Assembly: GCF_001953745.1 (NCBI RefSeq)
Contig: NZ_LWLN01000001.1
Location: 248,001-312,000 of the forward strand
Reading direction: 5' to 3'
Length of the DNA: 64,000 nt
Origin: Natrinema saccharevitans
GTDB taxonomy: Archaea; Halobacteriota; Halobacteria; Halobacteriales; Natrialbaceae
Part shown: positions 33,299 to 40,934 of the stretch, in pieces
Layout: the number at the start of each line of letters is the position of its first letter
Position numbering within the stretch: the stretch's first letter is position 1
Program-made: the position numbers and the translations under genes
The notes under the pieces: model-generated
The model's input: only the letters and a program-made list of their open reading frames with translations
What the model was told of the DNA's origin: nothing
Database searches by the model: none

Positions 33299-34978
33299 TC
33301 AGGCGAACTGGTCGATGCCGCTGATCCGGATGGGAAGCCCCTCGAGGCCGTCCCGTTGGAAGCTCGCGATCGCGTCGTTGACCTCGTGATAGCCCAGCAC
33401 GTCGGCGTCGATCAGTTGGCGAATGATCTCGGCCCGCCGGTCGAGTTCGTCGTAGATCTTCCGGGTGTCCTCGTAGCCGAGCAACGTCGCGATCTGTTCC
33501 TCGAGGACGTAGGAGTTGTTCCGGCCGGTAAAGGCGACCTCGTCGTCGCGGGGGTCCCACTTGAACGCCTGTCGGGTGACGACCCCGCCCTCGTAGTCGG
33601 AGTAGCCCTCGATCTCCTGGACCGACGTGACCCGCCGGAGGACGTCGTCGCCCTGCTTGACGCGGTTCTGGAACAGCGCGACGTCGCAGTTGTCCATGAA
33701 CGTCTCGGGGACGTTGATCGGTGCCCCGGTAAAGCGCTGGATCATCGAGACGATGTCGCTGGCGTGGAAGGTCAGCATGACGGGGTGACCGGTCTGGGCC
33801 GCCTGGAACGCCATCTGGCCTTCCGCCCCGCGGACCTCGCCCACGACGATGTAGTCCGGCCGGGATCGCAACGCGGCGGCGACCAGGTCGAACATGTCCA
33901 CGTCGGCCGACTCGTCGCCCGACCCCTCGCGGGTGAGCAGTTGCTGCCAGGTGTTGTGGGGCGGGATGACCTCCGCGGTGTCTTCGGCGGTGTATATCTT
34001 CGCGTCCCGCGGGATAAACGACAGCGCCGCGTTCAGTGTCGTCGTCTTCCCCGACGCCGTCTCGCCGACGACGAAGACGGTCTGTTCGTTCTCGAGACAG
34101 AGCCAGAGGTACGCGGCCAGCTCCGGGCTCAGCGTTCCCCACTTCGTGATCTGGAACACCGACAGCGGGATCTCCTCGCCCTGTCGGATGGTCAGGGAGG
34201 GGCCCTGTACCGAGACGTCGTCGGAGTAGATGATGTTGATACGCGAGCCGTCGGGCAGCGTCGCGTCGATCACCGGGTCGGAGTCGCTGACCGGGTGGTT
34301 CATCCGCTCGCCCATGTTGCGCAGCCACTGCTCGAACTCCTCGGGGGTCCCGAAGTCGACGGTCGCCGAGATCATCCCGTAGGTGCCGTGATCGAGGTAA
34401 CACTGCTTGGGCCCGATCACGTGGATGTCCTCGTTAGCTGGGTCAGTCATCACGGGCTCTAAGGGACCGAGCCCGACGATGTCGCGCTGGAGCTGGTAGC
34501 GCAGCCGCGTGAATTGATCCTGCGAGAGCGCGATTTTGCTGGTACCGAGCGACTTGAGCCGACCGATCGACTGCCCCGCGATCCCCGACCCGACCGCGAC
34601 GACTTCGTCGAGCAGTTCGTCCAGGTGTTCCTCGAACTCCTCGTCGTCGCCCGGTGCCGGCCGGGTGACGCTCTTGTCGAGGATTCGCTGCCGGATGCGG
34701 TTGTACAGTGCCTTGTCCTCGCTTTCCAGGGTCGGCTCGACGCAGTAGTAGGTGGTGTCGATTCCCAGATCACCGTGGACGTGACAGAAGATCGGCTCCT
34801 CGGCCGTGTAGATGACGTTGGGCCGGTCGGACTCCCACTCGCCGCCGGGCTCGTCGATGAGTTTCGGGTACTCGTTGTACTCGTCGTGAAACCACTCGAG
34901 GTGTTCCCGGAGGTGTGGGTACTCGTCGGCCAACGTGTCGAGTTCGCTCTCGAGTCGTGCAGTCCCGAAGTCCGACAT
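33299..34978 (-). CDS. arlI: Archaellum assembly/rotation ATPase ArlI
   Basis: A 559-residue secretion-type ATPase. Walker A GETASGKTT (residues 305-313), the Asp box IYTAEDTAEV, Walker B PDYIVVGEVRG and the His box GHPVMLTFHA are all intact. It powers both filament assembly and rotation. The start MSDFGTARLES (ATG 34978) is used because its codon shares a base with the arlH stop (TAATG); the longer frame upstream is antisense-like. Confidence 0.95.
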   Translation of the reverse strand: MSDFGTARLESELDTLADEYPHLREHLEWFHDEYNEYPKLIDEPGGEWESDRPNVIYTAEEPIFCHVHGDLGIDTTYYCVEPTLESEDKALYNRIRQRILDKSVTRPAPGDDEEFEEHLDELLDEVVAVGSGIAGQSIGRLKSLGTSKIALSQDQFTRLRYQLQRDIVGLGPLEPVMTDPANEDIHVIGPKQCYLDHGTYGMISATVDFGTPEEFEQWLRNMGERMNHPVSDSDPVIDATLPDGSRINIIYSDDVSVQGPSLTIRQGEEIPLSVFQITKWGTLSPELAAYLWLCLENEQTVFVVGETASGKTTTLNAALSFIPRDAKIYTAEDTAEVIPPHNTWQQLLTREGSGDESADVDMFDLVAAALRSRPDYIVVGEVRGAEGQMAFQAAQTGHPVMLTFHASDIVSMIQRFTGAPINVPETFMDNCDVALFQNRVKQGDDVLRRVTSVQEIEGYSDYEGGVVTRQAFKWDPRDDEVAFTGRNNSYVLEEQIATLLGYEDTRKIYDELDRRAEIIRQLIDADVLGYHEVNDAIASFQRDGLEGLPIRISGIDQFA

Positions 34979-35706
34979 TATGCCACCGTCCTGCTGACGA
35001 TCGAGACGCCACGGCCCTGCTGGACGCTGAAGCCGATGGAGTCGTCGACCGGACTCTTCATGTTCTGGAACCGTCGGACCAGGATCTTCCGCCTGATCTC
35101 CTGACCGACCGTGCTCGTCTCGATCTGAAAGTAGATATCGGCCACGTTCTGCAGCGGCCGTAAGGCGTCGTCGGCGACGCTGGTCGGATCGACCGTCAGG
35201 ACGACCGACTTGTCCTTCATCGTCATCTGTCGCAGGAACGTGACCAGCCGCTGGATGACGTGGTCCTCGTCGCCGTCGTCGATGACGCTCTCGTAGTTGG
35301 GATCGTTTCGCAACAGTGACGAGAGGGTATCCACGAAGACGACATCGGCCTTCCACAGCGTCTTGGCGTCCGCGAGGCGGGCGAGCAACTGCCGTTTCCG
35401 GCCCTCGTCGTGGGTGTCGACGTTGGCGTGCAGGAACAGCAACTGCTCGTCAAGCAGCAGGTCGACCACGTCATAGGACAGCGAGTGCATCTGCTGGACG
35501 AACTCCCACGATTTCAGCTCCGTCGAGACGTACGTGACGTAGGCATCCTCCGTCGCCATCCCGTAGGAGAACCGCTGGGTGAGGGCGCTCTTGCCCGCCC
35601 CGTCCTGACCTTCGATGAGTACGATGCTGCCCGCGGGGACCCCGCCGCCGATGGCGGTGTTCACGCGATCCCGTCCTGTCAGTCCGATCGAGTAGTAGTC
35701 CGTCAT
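34978..35706 (-). CDS. arlH: Archaellum RecA-like protein ArlH
   Basis: A 242-residue KaiC/RecA-like protein with Walker A GQDGAGKS (residues 33-40) and Walker B-like KADVVFVDTLSSLL. ArlH binds ATP and regulates ArlI at the motor platform. The ATG at 35706 overlaps the arlG stop (ATGA), and the stop overlaps the arlI start. Confidence 0.95.
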   Translation of the reverse strand: MTDYYSIGLTGRDRVNTAIGGGVPAGSIVLIEGQDGAGKSALTQRFSYGMATEDAYVTYVSTELKSWEFVQQMHSLSYDVVDLLLDEQLLFLHANVDTHDEGRKRQLLARLADAKTLWKADVVFVDTLSSLLRNDPNYESVIDDGDEDHVIQRLVTFLRQMTMKDKSVVLTVDPTSVADDALRPLQNVADIYFQIETSTVGQEIRRKILVRRFQNMKSPVDDSIGFSVQQGRGVSIVSRTVA

Positions 35707-36167
35707 GGGACGTAGAATTCGAACACCTCCTCCGCGCCGTTGATCGTCACGACGACCCGGTGTTCCGCGTCGGTCGCCAGCGACCGATCGATCTCGAGTT
35801 GCGCGACGGTTCCCGACCGCCACTGGCTGCCGCCGTCGCGGACCGTTACCGTGAACTCGTCGCTCGAGACGTACGTGCCGTTGACCAGTACGTCGAGGTC
35901 GCTCTCGTCGGTTGCAAGGGTCTTCTGGCCGGTGTTTTTCACCAACAGCGTGATGTTTTCCGACCCGTCGGAGTCGTACACCGCGTCGCTGCCCGGATCG
36001 CTGATGATCTCGATGTCGGTGTCGATCTTGTCGGTCACGTCGCCGCTGTGGGCCTCGACCGAGTTACTGATCTCGTTGACGTTGGTCACCAGCGTGCCGG
36101 CGACGCCGGCGGCGACCAGCATCGCGGCGATGAACAGGATCAGCGTCGAGACGGAGTCACCTGCCAT
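35703..36167 (-). CDS. arlG: Archaellum stator protein ArlG
   Basis: A 154-residue protein with one N-terminal membrane helix (TLILFIAAMLVAAGVAGTLV) and an extracytoplasmic beta-sandwich (ENITLLVKNTGQKTL, LDVLVNGTYVSSDEF). ArlG with ArlF anchors the motor to the S-layer. It overlaps arlH by four bases and starts 3 nt after arlF. Confidence 0.93.
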   Translation of the reverse strand: MAGDSVSTLILFIAAMLVAAGVAGTLVTNVNEISNSVEAHSGDVTDKIDTDIEIISDPGSDAVYDSDGSENITLLVKNTGQKTLATDESDLDVLVNGTYVSSDEFTVTVRDGGSQWRSGTVAQLEIDRSLATDAEHRVVVTINGAEEVFEFYVP

Positions 36168-36170
36168 CGG

Positions 36171-36602
36171 TCACACCCCCGTCACCGTCTCGGCGACCCC
36201 GTAGTCGGTCACGACCTTCGCCCTGTCCGGTCGCGGCGTCGACACCTCCATCGTCAGCGTTTCGCCGGGTTGCCACAGTTCCCGACCGCCGTCGCCGTCG
36301 ACGCTGGTCGCGTACGACTCTTGGTAGACGCCGTCGAGCAGCAGCGCCGTCTCCGGAACCGACAGCGTCGTCGACCCGGTGTTGTCCACGCTCATGGTGA
36401 AGTTTTCGTCGCCGCTCTCGTTGTAGCTCCAGGACGCGACCTCGATCCCCGTGTTCCGCACGTCGAGCTGTCGGTCGTCGCGGTCCGCGATCGCGTCTCG
36501 CCGTTGTTCCTGTGCCGTCTGGAACACCGGGTACGCGATCCCCGCCGCGACGAGGACCCCGACGAAGACGATCGCCGTCGCGCCGCTGGTACTGAATCCC
36601 AC
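36171..36602 (-). CDS. arlF: Archaellum stator protein ArlF
   Basis: A 143-residue protein with an N-terminal helix (GATAIVFVGVLVAAGIAYPV) and a beta-sandwich (NFTMSVDNTGSTTLSVPETA). In characterised systems ArlF binds the S-layer protein and acts as part of the stator with ArlG. Encoded between arlCE and arlG. Confidence 0.93.
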   Translation of the reverse strand: MGFSTSGATAIVFVGVLVAAGIAYPVFQTAQEQRRDAIADRDDRQLDVRNTGIEVASWSYNESGDENFTMSVDNTGSTTLSVPETALLLDGVYQESYATSVDGDGGRELWQPGETLTMEVSTPRPDRAKVVTDYGVAETVTGV

Positions 36603-36637: not shown

Positions 36638-37723
36638 TCACGCCTCCGTCTCCGCGTCCGGTTCGACCTCCTGCTTCGTCTCGTGGATCTTCTGGAGTTT
36701 CATGATGTAGGTGTAGCTGTCCGCGTGGTCCTCGGCGGTCAACTCGTCGGGCGTCGCCCCCGGATCGACGTGGATGTCGAGGTCCGGGCCGCTGAGCGTC
36801 GCCTCGAGGTGGGCCTTGACGTCCTCGCCGATCCAGCCGATCTCGGCGTAGTAGGAGATCGCGCGCAACGTCGCCGCCGGGCCGGCCGTCCGGACCAACT
36901 CGGTGAGCCACTCCAACACGATGATGTCCGTCGCGTACGTGTCCGCGAGCGCCTCGAGGGTGACGTCTGAATCGCCGTCTGCGCCGTCCGTCTCGTCTTC
37001 GATCGGGTCGGCGTCGGCCGAATCATCGACGCTGTCGGTCGCCTGTACCTCGACGCGGGTGTCGTCGTCGCCGTCGATCTCGGTCTCGAACGCGAGCCGT
37101 TCGCCGTCCCCGTCGCGCCGCTGGGCCGCGTCCTCGATGACGCCTTTCAGGTCGTCGAACGAGACCGATTCCTCGCCGCGCCGGGAGCGGTCGTCGACCG
37201 CCGTCTGGCGCGTCTCGGTCCCGCCGTCGGTCACCGACTCGTCCTCGCCGAAGACGCCGAACCCGTTTCGCTCCTCGCCGTCCCCGGTGAAGGGGTTCAC
37301 GTCGTCGGTCAACATGTCGTAGACCCCCAGTAGCTGCCGGACCGTGTCGTTCATCTCCTCGACCTGATCCGCGACCTGCTGTTGGGAGTCGCGGACCGAG
37401 CCCAGCTCTGACTCCTTGTCCGCGAGCTGGTCCTCGAGTTCCTCGATCCGGTAGTGCAGATCGTCGAGGTCCTCCTCGTCGCTCGAGCCGCCCCTGCCGA
37501 ACAACCCACCACCGCCGCTGTCGGACTCGGACTCGCTCGGCTCGGCCGTTTCGGCCGGCTCGTCGGAGCCGTCCTGCGTTTCCGCGTCGGCCGCGGACTC
37601 GGTATCGCCGTCGTCGACCTCGCCCTGCTGCCGGCGCTGCTCGCGCTCCCGGCCTCGACGACCGCCGCTGTCGCTGAGGAAGTCTTCGAGCAGGGTTCGC
37701 AGGGAGTCGAGTCCGAAGTCCAT
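36638..37723 (-). CDS. arlCE: Archaellum accessory fusion ArlCE
   Basis: A 361-residue protein combining an acidic disordered N-terminus, a coiled coil (about 85-125, YRIEELEDQLADKESELGSV), the ArlC segment LLGVYDMLTDDVNPFTG and a C-terminal ArlE domain (about 255-345, YATDIIVLEWLTELVRTAG). Such fusions are typical of Halobacteria and connect to CheF. First gene of the arlCE-F-G-H-I-J-D unit, divergent from the archaellins. Confidence 0.92.
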   Translation of the reverse strand: MDFGLDSLRTLLEDFLSDSGGRRGREREQRRQQGEVDDGDTESAADAETQDGSDEPAETAEPSESESDSGGGGLFGRGGSSDEEDLDDLHYRIEELEDQLADKESELGSVRDSQQQVADQVEEMNDTVRQLLGVYDMLTDDVNPFTGDGEERNGFGVFGEDESVTDGGTETRQTAVDDRSRRGEESVSFDDLKGVIEDAAQRRDGDGERLAFETEIDGDDDTRVEVQATDSVDDSADADPIEDETDGADGDSDVTLEALADTYATDIIVLEWLTELVRTAGPAATLRAISYYAEIGWIGEDVKAHLEATLSGPDLDIHVDPGATPDELTAEDHADSYTYIMKLQKIHETKQEVEPDAETEA

Positions 37724-38150
37724 GGCTACCTCCGTGCCGCTCGATGTGTCGCTGTCAGTCGCCGATAGCGGCGGTCCCCGTCGTCCGATACGGTCATGCT
37801 ACTCACTCGTAGCGGGGGTGTTCGTATAGATGTCCGCTCGAGTTCGCCCCCCGAATCGGCCCGCGTTTCGAGTCGTGAGTCGAGTCTCGATACGCCGGCT
37901 GAAGTGATACTGAGCTTGATACTCCGGTTAGCCCTTGTCTCCGTCGGGGTACATCCCCAGAATCTGTGATGCCAACGGCCTCGTCACGCGCCGGCCTTCG
38001 GCGGGATACGACCGGTGTCCCGTCGCCACGCCTACGGAGGGAGCGGCGGGTTCGGCCCGTCGAGCCGGCGGGTGACGTTCGCGTTCGCGCGGACGGCACG
38101 CGTCGCGACGACGCGGCGGCGACGAGGACGGCATGCAGGGTGTACACACT
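37724..38150. other. Divergent control region arlCE / archaellins
   Basis: No gene is supported. The stretch next to the archaellins is very G+C-rich with no clear TATA box at -30 of ATG 38151, so the archaellin transcript probably has a long leader. A GCTAC/GTAGC dyad lies at 37797-37812. Confidence 0.45.
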
Positions 38151-38870
38151 ATGTTCGAAGCAATAACAGACTACGACAACGACGACCGCGGGCAGGTCGG
38201 GATCGGGACGCTCATCGTGTTCATCGCGATGGTCCTGGTCGCGGCGATCGCGGCAGGGGTACTGATCAACACGGCTGGTGTTCTGCAAACGCAGGCATCC
38301 GACACCGGCTCCGAAACACAGGAAGCAGTTGCGAATCAGATCGAAGTGACACATGCTAGTGGGAACGTGACTCCTGGGTACGGGGATGGACGGACTGTCG
38401 ACGTCGTCAACCTGTCCGTCATGAAGTCGGCTGGTTCCGACTCGATCGATCTCGAATCAATGACGATTCAGTATACGAGTTCGTCTGTTGACCAGACGTT
38501 GACCTACGGCGGTAATAATTTCGTTACTCCAGACTACAGTAGTGATGGAACAAGTGGACTCACGAATACGGCAGACACCTATACTGATGGCACATCCGCT
38601 GCAAACCACACGGCCTTTGCAACGGAGAACATTGCCGGTGATGATGGTGGTGACACTGAACTCATTAGCACTGATGACCGAGTAAAGGTTACACTATTTG
38701 TTGCCGCAATTGAGGAAGGGTCCGGCGCAGACGGGGATGTCAATGCAGATAGTGGTCTCACGGGTGGTGAGAGTGCAACGATTAAGCTGACGGACCAGTC
38801 CGGTGCGGAATTCTCCTACGGCATCAGTGTTCCATCGACCTTCGGCAACAAACAAATCGTGGAGGTGTGA
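38151..38870 (+). CDS. Archaellin 1
   Basis: A 239-residue archaellin. After the prepilin-type leader ending DRGQVGIG comes the hydrophobic assembly helix [20 protein letters not shown], then the surface domain and the closing [13 protein letters not shown]. ArlK (PibD) would cleave before the helix, after the glycine of the leader. ATG 38151 is chosen by comparison with the two following paralogues, which also begin MFE. Ser/Thr/Asn-rich loops with NxS/T sites (NHT, NLS) suggest N-glycosylation. Confidence 0.93.
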
Positions 38871-38872
38871 CG

Positions 38873-39580
38873 ATGTTCGAGAAAATAACTGACGATAATG
38901 AGCGTGCACAGGTCGGGATCGGGACCTTGATCGTGTTCATCGCGATGGTCCTGGTCGCAGCGATCGCAGCGGGCGTCCTGATCAACACGGCTGGAGTCCT
39001 GCAAACGCAGGCCTCTGACACCGGCTCCGAAACGCAAGAGGCGGTCGCTAATCAGGTGGAGGTCACACATGCATCTGGGAACGTCTCCGGAACGGACAAG
39101 ATCGATTCGGTCAACCTGACGATCATGAAATCGGCCGGTTCGAACGCGATCGATCTCGAGTCGATGACGATCCAGTACACCAGTGATAGCGTCGACCGGA
39201 CGTTGACTCATGGTGGAAACGACGTCGGAGCCACTAATGATGTTGATTATAGTTCCAGTACTACTGATGACCTTGGTGTCTTAAATGCCACCCAGTTCGC
39301 GACCAACAATATCGCTGGCGACGACGGTGGCGATAATGAACTCATCAGTACCGACGACCGAGTGACAGTTACACTTCAAGTAGCCGCAATTGAGGCTGGT
39401 GCAGAAGGTGACGGTTCTGCTACGCCACTTAGTGAGGGCGATATCGAGAACCTCAATGAAGACGGTCTCGAGGGCGGAGACAGCGTCACGCTAACGCTAA
39501 CCGACCAGTCGGGCGCCGAGTTCACCTACGGGATCAGCGTCCCGTCGACCTTCGGGAACAAGCGCATCGTGGAGGTATAG
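38873..39580 (+). CDS. Archaellin 2
   Basis: A 235-residue archaellin, nearly identical to archaellin 1 over the first ~70 residues (leader, helix and [20 protein letters not shown]) and at the C-terminus ([17 protein letters not shown]), with a variable middle. It begins 2 nt after the stop of archaellin 1. Its Shine-Dalgarno GGAGGTG (38861-38867) is made from the last codons of the preceding gene. Confidence 0.93.
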
Positions 39581-40483
39581 ATGTTCGAACGACTCGTAGA
39601 CGAACGCGAGCGCGGGCAAGTCGGGATCGGGACACTCATCGTGTTCATCGCGATGGTCCTGGTCGCAGCGATCGCTGCGGGCGTCCTGATCAACACCGCT
39701 GGCGTTCTACAGACCCAGGCGTCTGATACGGGATCAGAAACGCAGGAGGCCGTTGCCAACCAGATCGAAGTCACCCACGCTGCCGGTCAGGTTAGCGGCG
39801 ATGTCGTTGATCAAGTGGATCTGACGCTCATGAAGTCGGCGGGGTCGAACGCGATCGACCTCGAGGCGATGACCGTGCAGTACACGAGTTCCAGTACTGA
39901 TGCGACTCTCACGTACGAAGACGGCACCACTGATGGAGACCACTTCGATACGGAAGAACTAGCTGGCGTAACCGATGGAACGTCGCTAACGACGACTGAA
40001 GACCGAGTTAAACTCATGCTAAATACCGCTGCGCTCGAAGGAGGAGGCGGCAGTGAGACTACGGGTCAGGCTACGTTGGATCTAGTCTCGGATGGGTCTG
40101 AAGTCGATACCGCAACTATTGACACGCAGCCCACATCCGGTGGTGATTTAGTCTTCTCGGTGGGAAGCAATTCGGGTTCATTCGACTCTGAAACAATCAC
40201 TATCTATGATAGTACCGATAGTTCTATCGGAACAATAGATGGAAGTGCTAGTGAAACGGAAGTTACAGTAGATAGTGGAGACTTCAGTGATGGCGAGCAA
40301 TTGACTGCGGAGGTCACGGACGGTAATGGAGATACGGTCACAGTTGACTATGCCTCAAACGGCGCTGGTCTTGAGTCCGGTTCGAGCGCGACCGTTTCGC
40401 TCGTCGATCAGTCCGGTGCGAAGTTCACCTACGGGATCAGCGTCCCGTCGACCTTCGGCAACAAGCAGGTCGTCGAAGTCTAA
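39581..40483 (+). CDS. Archaellin 3 with inserted domain
   Basis: A 300-residue archaellin sharing leader, helix and C-terminus with the other two, but longer by a block at about residues 162-263. The block is beta-rich and Ser/Thr/Asp/Gly-rich ([53 protein letters not shown]), like a bacterial-Ig-type repeat, and would project from the filament. Its DNA (40064-40369) is richer in A+T than the rest of the gene. It starts immediately after the stop of archaellin 2, with GGAGGT 4 nt upstream. Confidence 0.9.
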
Positions 40484-40517: not shown

Positions 40518-40934
40518 ATGACCCCCAACGGTTCACAGGACGACGGTATTCTCACCCCTGACGAGCTGCAGCTCGAGGACGAGAACGTCGCGAAACTGAG
40601 TGAGAACCGCTATCTCGTCCGAGCGGACGCTGCCGACGAGGAGCCGTCCGCCGACGCCACGACGATCACCGACTCCGACGCGAGTTCCACGCACCTCGAG
40701 TCGGAACGCGCACAGACGGCGTCGGAGACGGCCCTCGCCGACGCGGCCGAACCGCACGGGGTCGACATCACGCTGAAGACCGACGGGGAGATCGCACACC
40801 ATCACGCGACGTCACACGACGTCCGCGAGGTGTTCGTCGACCTCCTGACCTGGTACGCGGGCCAGCTCGACGACGACATGTCGCCCAGCGAGGCGCTGCG
40901 GGTCATGCTGGCCGCGTCCGATCTCGAGGTCTGA
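40518..40934 (+). CDS. Small acidic protein linked to archaellins
   Basis: A 138-residue acidic protein. A disordered N-terminal half (LTPDELQLEDENVAKLSENR) leads to a compact C-terminal domain, VDITLKTDGEIAHHHATSHD then VREVFVDLLTWYAGQLDDDM and SEALRVMLAASDLEV. The HHH cluster is notable. It begins 34 nt after archaellin 3 in the same direction, so it is probably co-expressed and may act in archaellin handling or regulation. No family function known to me. Confidence 0.75.
   Translation: MTPNGSQDDGILTPDELQLEDENVAKLSENRYLVRADAADEEPSADATTITDSDASSTHLESERAQTASETALADAAEPHGVDITLKTDGEIAHHHATSHDVREVFVDLLTWYAGQLDDDMSPSEALRVMLAASDLEV

Follow-up and report, generated by a model that had tools for sequence, protein, structure and literature searches.

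An archaellin of Natrinema saccharevitans with a large acidic insert in the last loop of its head and no N-glycosylation sequons

Introduction

The archaellum locus of Natrinema saccharevitans contains three archaellin genes in tandem, the last of which encodes a protein with about 100 extra residues and with none of the N-glycosylation sequons that both of its neighbors possess. This raises the question of what the additional block does in a filament subunit, how it came to be there, and whether its presence is connected with the missing sequons. The role of glycans in archaella is still under study. We analyzed the locus within a stretch of 64,000 nucleotides (positions 248,001 to 312,000 of contig NZ_LWLN01000001.1), referred to here as the window, and compared its archaellins with those of other haloarchaea. 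A preliminary description of the same DNA had pointed out the block and proposed that it decorates the filament surface and may be a module exchanged between archaellins or surface proteins.

The archaellin genes and the archaellum locus

All three archaellin genes are located on the forward strand: archaellin 1 at 38151..38870 (239 residues if started at MFEAI; an upstream ATG at 38133 would make it 245 residues), archaellin 2 at 38873..39580 (235 residues) and archaellin 3 at 39581..40483 (300 residues), the trio spanning lengths of 235–300 residues. Each matches PF01917 (E = 4e-30, 3e-32 and 6e-26, respectively). The genes adjoin an archaellum motor operon at 33.3–37.7 kb on the reverse strand, which encodes FlaC/FlaDE, two PF01917 accessory proteins, a KaiC-type and a T2SSE protein. 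ArlCE (36638..37723), with FlaC_arch and Arch_fla_DE domains, is divergent from the archaellins. The accessory proteins are ArlF-like (36171..36602; E = 1e-8) and ArlG-like (35703..36167; E = 3e-25), F and G being told apart by gene order, and the names of the ArlH-like KaiC-type ATPase (34978..35751) and the ArlI-like T2SSE ATPase (33299..34990; the listed frame starts farther upstream than this annotation) were given by position. Archaellin 3 is immediately followed by a DUF7500 gene (PF24332) of the same orientation at 40518-40934. The archaellum appears to be patchily distributed in the genus, since an archaellin match at E 1e-5 was obtained in only 11 of 29 genomes.

The three archaellins share nearly identical ends, as had been described: 49 of 49 residues agree over QVGIG..AVANQ, and 24–26 of the last 30. 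Recent gene conversion of the common N-terminal stretch is unsupported, because third-position identity there is only 0.53–0.65. The signal peptide and hydrophobic helix of archaellin 3 match TIGR02537 (E = 1.4e-10; 40.4 bits against a cut-off of 20), its head core matches PF01917 over residues 12–150 with 92 bits, and its C-terminal hairpin aligns in a set of 359 archaellins. Judged by sequence, archaellin 3 is a normal filament subunit with signal peptide, hydrophobic helix and beta-rich head. It shares the signal peptide, hydrophobic helix, core strands and C-terminal hairpin with haloarchaeal archaellins (ArlA/ArlB; PF01917), its siblings in the window included, and differs from them by an insert of about 106 residues in the last loop and by the absence of any N-glycosylation sequon. 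A separate observation concerns archaellin 2, in which Ala precedes the expected signal-peptide cleavage site, presumably between NERA and QVGIG by the cleavage rule that we assume; this position is Gly in archaellins 1 and 3 as well as in the consensus.

The inserted block

Multiple alignment placed 105–106 extra residues at core column 155/156 of archaellin 3 alone among the trio, in agreement with the preliminary description of about 100. The block had been assigned to 40064-40369, which is correct; our own delimitation begins seven codons earlier and gives 40043..40369 on the forward strand, i.e. 109 codons or about 106 residues above the consensus. It lies between the strand ending in TAALE (TAALEGGGG) and the last beta-hairpin, so that the insert site is the loop before the last hairpin of the archaellin head. 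The richness in Ser, Thr and Asp noted earlier was borne out, with 34 S+T and 22 D+E among the 109 residues and not a single K or R.

The block was also described as richer in A+T than its flanks. This is the case (GC 0.498, compared to 0.578 in the N-terminal and 0.613 in the C-terminal part; GC3 of the insert 0.422; window mean GC 0.660), but the composition is not special to the insert, as it is usual in the outer parts of archaellins. Archaellins 1 and 2 do not have the block, yet the GC of their variable regions is 0.506 and 0.511. Among 185 archaellins sampled from the family, 173 are lower in GC in the variable middle than in the N-terminal helix, and for 19 large inserts located at a different loop the mean GC is 0.489 and the mean GC3 0.45. 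Low GC is thus the rule for archaellin outer parts and no sign of a foreign origin of the insert; with similar values in the sibling variable regions and in other inserts, we rejected composition as an argument for recent transfer.

With respect to the fold, AlphaFold models built from the window archaellin sequences only or from the block alone contained 8 and 7 strands at low confidence (pLDDT 39.1 and 42.9), by which prediction the insert is likely beta-rich. An Ig-like fold, as suggested before, was a guess to which neither a profile nor a PDB match corresponds: searches of the insert against Pfam, NCBIfam and PDB sequences yielded no match.

Inserts in other haloarchaeal archaellins

For comparison, 359 archaellins were drawn from fetched regions of 144 genomes: a first set of 185 from 72 family genomes, a second of 84 from another 34 genomes, and a last batch of 90. 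Candidates were collected by the N-terminal motif and a frame of at least 120 residues (185 of 191 candidates kept in the first set, 84 kept in the second) or by a complete frame of at least 150 residues (90 kept). PF01917 was matched in 85 genomes of the family, of which 72 were used, including our own, and 13 were left out (e.g. G242, G261 and G290). The 34 further genomes were picked from the better-scoring rows of a search with the archaellin of genome G305 described below, which biases against long archaellins, while 20 regions and a few others in the last batch were chosen for long open frames, which enriches inserts; insert counts in the 359 set are therefore not frequencies.

Inserts of more than 50 residues were present in 42 of the 359 archaellins, 21 at core column 73, 19 at column 118 and two at column 155, and insert-bearing archaellins are now known to us from 35 genomes. 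The insert of archaellin 3 is thus not at either of the two common loops, and its site is shared by one other archaellin of the 359, a 306-residue protein of G305, a genome of another genus. Apart from these two, the first set contains 183 archaellins, and in none of them does the region of the column-155 loop exceed 29 residues, seven core columns included. When the full-length G305 archaellin was searched against 391 genomes of the class, with five candidates scored per genome, only the protein itself and archaellin 3 aligned end to end among the matches listed.

Surface decoration by the block, as proposed earlier, is supported by its position: the loop is variable in length in other archaellins, and comparable blocks occur at two other loops, one of which holds the insert in the solved 463-residue archaellin 9v96. 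This protein (9v96/9xtb) resembles archaellin 3 (phmmer E = 2e-21) and likewise carries an outer domain inserted in its head; 9v95 (454 residues; E = 1e-20) is close to it in length and score. In contrast to that of archaellin 3, the insert of 9v96, as read off the alignment, belongs to the first loop, following residue 73 or so of archaellin 3, and has about 2.5 times the length. Archaellins with inserted domains are already known, and the column-155 loop is a third head loop that accepts a whole domain. In the literature searched, which covers part of the field and was available in part, there was no mention of an insert at this third loop or of core sequons being scarcer in insert-bearing archaellins.

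Sequons and inserts

Archaellin 1 contains the sequons NVT72, NLS87 and NHT152, and archaellin 2 contains NVS70, NLT81 and NAT138. Archaellin 3 has no N-x-S/T sequon at all; where archaellins 1 and 2 have their NL[ST] sequon, it reads DLT, with Asp80 (codon 39818..39820, forward strand) instead of the Asn. In a gap-free alignment, Asp80 pairs with Asn80 of 9eq7_A, a solved archaellin chain that we infer, by linking the entry to its paper, to be the consensus archaellin of Halobacterium salinarum. Asn80 of that archaellin is glycosylated according to the accessible part of the publication (PMC11239922). Around core column 118, near their third sequon, archaellins 1 and 2 exceed archaellin 3 in length; archaellin 1 has 27 residues above the consensus there, and archaellin 3 is devoid of that third sequon.

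The same relation was observed across the 359 set. Core sequons were absent from 37 of 42 insert-bearing archaellins as compared to 76 of 317 un-inserted ones, and with the insert included in the count, 30 of the 42 were sequon-free. Compared to shuffled sequences, the heads of insert-bearing archaellins outside the insert contained 9 sequons versus 41.3±5.7 expected, and the inserts themselves 41 versus 65.5±6.7, whereas the heads of 245 un-inserted archaellins contained 633 versus 386.7±17.6. Loss of the enzyme as the cause was rejected: the oligosaccharyltransferase family PF02516 (STT3/AglB) was detected in 30 of 30 genomes, a sample with 18 of the 35 known insert genomes, the 17 found later lying outside it, so the oligosaccharyltransferase has not been lost in the genomes tested. 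In 40 of 42 cases, the insert was more negative than its own core.

Five insert-bearing archaellins keep core sequons, namely those of G227 (358 residues; six sequons), G006 (three, with a 52-residue insert), G145 (312 residues; two), G294 (456 residues; one) and G258 (487 residues; one); G227, G294 and G258 sit on long branches of the 358-row tree. Sequons inside the insert itself occurred in 11 of 42, with a maximum of 12, and were most numerous in genus g29, which is by inference Halorubrum (12 in one archaellin of G464, 8 in G395, 6 in G092, 5 in G449 and 4 in G468). The 404-residue archaellin of G464 (L216) carries a 204-residue insert at column 118 with all 12 sequons and has none in its core, and smaller versions of this pattern were seen at L228, L223, L221 and L214. 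Such sequon-rich inserts would fit glycans shifted outward onto the insert rather than a glycan-free coat.

Based on these results, we propose, with the chances for and against about evenly balanced, that archaellin 3 is a normal subunit whose acidic outer domain of about 106 residues before the last hairpin replaces the glycan coat. In Halobacterium salinarum, truncated glycans lead to bundling of the filaments, for which the authors invoke the negative charge of the glycan in the part of PMC11239922 available to us. Archaellin 3 would be incorporated into the filament, its acidic inserted domain would project from it, and this domain would supply the repulsion that otherwise comes from the charged glycan. 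With repulsion provided by the insert, the core sequons of archaellin 3 may have been free to decay, if insertion indeed came first.

A serious contender, though one that we hold to be somewhat less probable, is that certain lineages tend both to lose sequons and to acquire inserts, for example by way of another surface chemistry or of O-glycosylation, with no causal link between the two and with the insert as a simply tolerated outer domain. Among the insert genomes, 13 of 18 in the 269 set and 24 of 35 in the 359 set, the latter count including genomes that have no un-inserted sibling, lacked any un-inserted sibling with a sequon, so the sequons may have been lost at the level of the genome rather than in connection with the insert. 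An insert-bearing sibling occurred in the genome for 29 of 76 sequon-free but only 16 of 241 sequon-bearing un-inserted archaellins. By parsimony, inserts arose about seven times, and phylogenetically independent pairs did not reach significance: on supported branches of the 358-row tree, 2.4 of 4 pairs pointed the same way and 0.2 the opposite way, and in the 269 set 3.0 of 5 and 0.0, respectively. However, the contrast within the operon of our own genome, with three sequons in each of archaellins 1 and 2 and zero in archaellin 3, speaks against a lineage effect. G095 shows the same contrast (0 versus 3, 3 and 1), and the deficit relative to the shuffles, in the inserts as well as in their cores, also argues against it.

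Relation to the inserts of Halorubrum

Archaellins of Halorubrum (335–456 residues) with central inserts that match AidA-like or DUF4397 domains are already in print and, in the part of the paper available (PMC7349177), are similar to our case in that a long insert-bearing archaellin lies beside a short sibling. They differ with regard to site, the 18 inserts of genus g29 being at core column 118 and that of archaellin 3 at column 155, and with regard to family, since the insert of archaellin 3 has no family match. These proteins bring up the possibility, which we regard as unlikely, that the insert is a module for binding or escape, i.e. an adhesin-like domain or a product of variation driven by viruses that use the archaellum for attachment. 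The AidA-type domain of the Halorubrum inserts was described as one 'with probable adhesive properties' in the same part of that paper, and most inserts compared show no clear similarity to that of archaellin 3, which would both be in line with such a role. The failure of the archaellin 3 insert to match any family in Pfam or NCBIfam speaks against it.

Descent of archaellin 3 and search for a donor

The G305 archaellin (L115:2725-3642:-) has an insert of 114–115 residues in the same loop, lacks sequons, is 57–59% identical to archaellin 3 overall, and is its probable sister by core sequence. The trees on which this is based are quick searches on overlapping data, those of 87 and 79 rows using subsets; in the 358-row tree, one row of 97 residues was left out and inserts were counted only if they had at least 80 residues. 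On core columns, the pair received SH-aLRT values of 90 (79 rows), 97 (269 rows) and 92 (358 rows), and in the 87-row tree the two proteins were mutually nearest by path. Grouping of archaellins 1–3 into one clade was not rejected either (p-AU 0.504, 79-row tree). The cores of archaellin 3 and the G305 archaellin probably are sisters, and the insert site shared by these nearest core relatives favors inheritance of an insert-bearing subtype.

The two inserts themselves differ markedly. That of G305 is far more acidic (net 0.44 versus 0.21 per residue in archaellin 3), is about 33% identical to the archaellin 3 insert and not clearly homologous to it, and is the only one of the two to hit DUF6406, at 21.3 bits (E = 3e-4) and hence below the cut-off of 26.9. 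BLAST without composition correction gave E = 3e-8 for the pair. We nevertheless do not claim homology, since the shuffle Z was 2.8–3.1 and inserts from other loops gave equal or higher values. A single insertion followed by strong divergence and two events at the same loop are both possible.

That the block is a cassette recently exchanged from another surface protein, as the preliminary description had proposed, appears very improbable to us. Within the genus, where 29 genomes including our own were searched and 11 had an archaellin match, the block was found in our own genome only; its absence from the other 28, 10 of them with archaellin matches, would agree with a recent arrival, as would its GC content below that of the flanks. 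In 392 genomes of the order, with up to 12 candidates scored per genome, only two weak matches were obtained, both to long surface-protein frames, which would fit such a source; one of them (L037) was 33% identical over 87 residues. However, the composition is normal for outer parts of archaellins, and the closest core relative carries its insert in the very same loop. No donor was found either: our own genome contained no copy of the block beyond weak matches, the genome_contigs collection, in a search suited to close relatives only, gave just two weak bacterial matches to Bacteroidota contigs, and neither plasmids nor viral contigs contained a copy. Four plasmid records did match archaellin 3, the best being a protein of Natronosalvus amylolyticus, which was rejected as a carrier because its 242 residues are too few for such a block. 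Target-site repeats were likewise absent, with only 12-nt pairs detected and none flanking the block. As neither a donor nor another copy was found, recent exchange is unsupported, and there is no positive evidence for a recent swap of a ready-made module. The observation in the preliminary description was therefore confirmed in part, and of its interpretation surface decoration is supported and the exchanged module is not.

Discussion

Our analysis identified archaellin 3 as an apparently normal archaellin with an acidic domain in a loop that rarely holds a large insert among the archaellins compared. A specialized minor archaellin, i.e. a hook-like or capping subunit encoded by the last cluster gene and with an insert serving that place in the filament, is hardly to be expected: archaellin 3 is indeed the last of three genes, and ArlB3 of M. 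villosus, also a third archaellin, did not match the filament map (PMC8821640, in the part available), but the insert-bearing archaellins were one of two (G163) or three of four (G145, G199) in the fetched regions, so that it is not only extra copies that carry inserts.

Returning to replacement of the glycan coat by the inserted domain, a wider version of this reading may be considered, which we put forward tentatively and think fairly unlikely. Haloarchaea may repeatedly have replaced the N-glycan coat of the archaellum with acidic domains at any of three head loops, the core sequons being lost though the oligosaccharyltransferase stays, and archaellin 3 may represent a case caught within one operon beside siblings that keep their sequons. 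If inserted acidic domains do perform the job of the glycan, insert-bearing archaellins would be natural low-glycan filaments, and, if this is true, an operon with two sequon-bearing subunits and one that is sequon-free and insert-bearing would provide a direct test. In addition, a third insert-tolerant loop of the archaellin head could serve for protein display on filaments.
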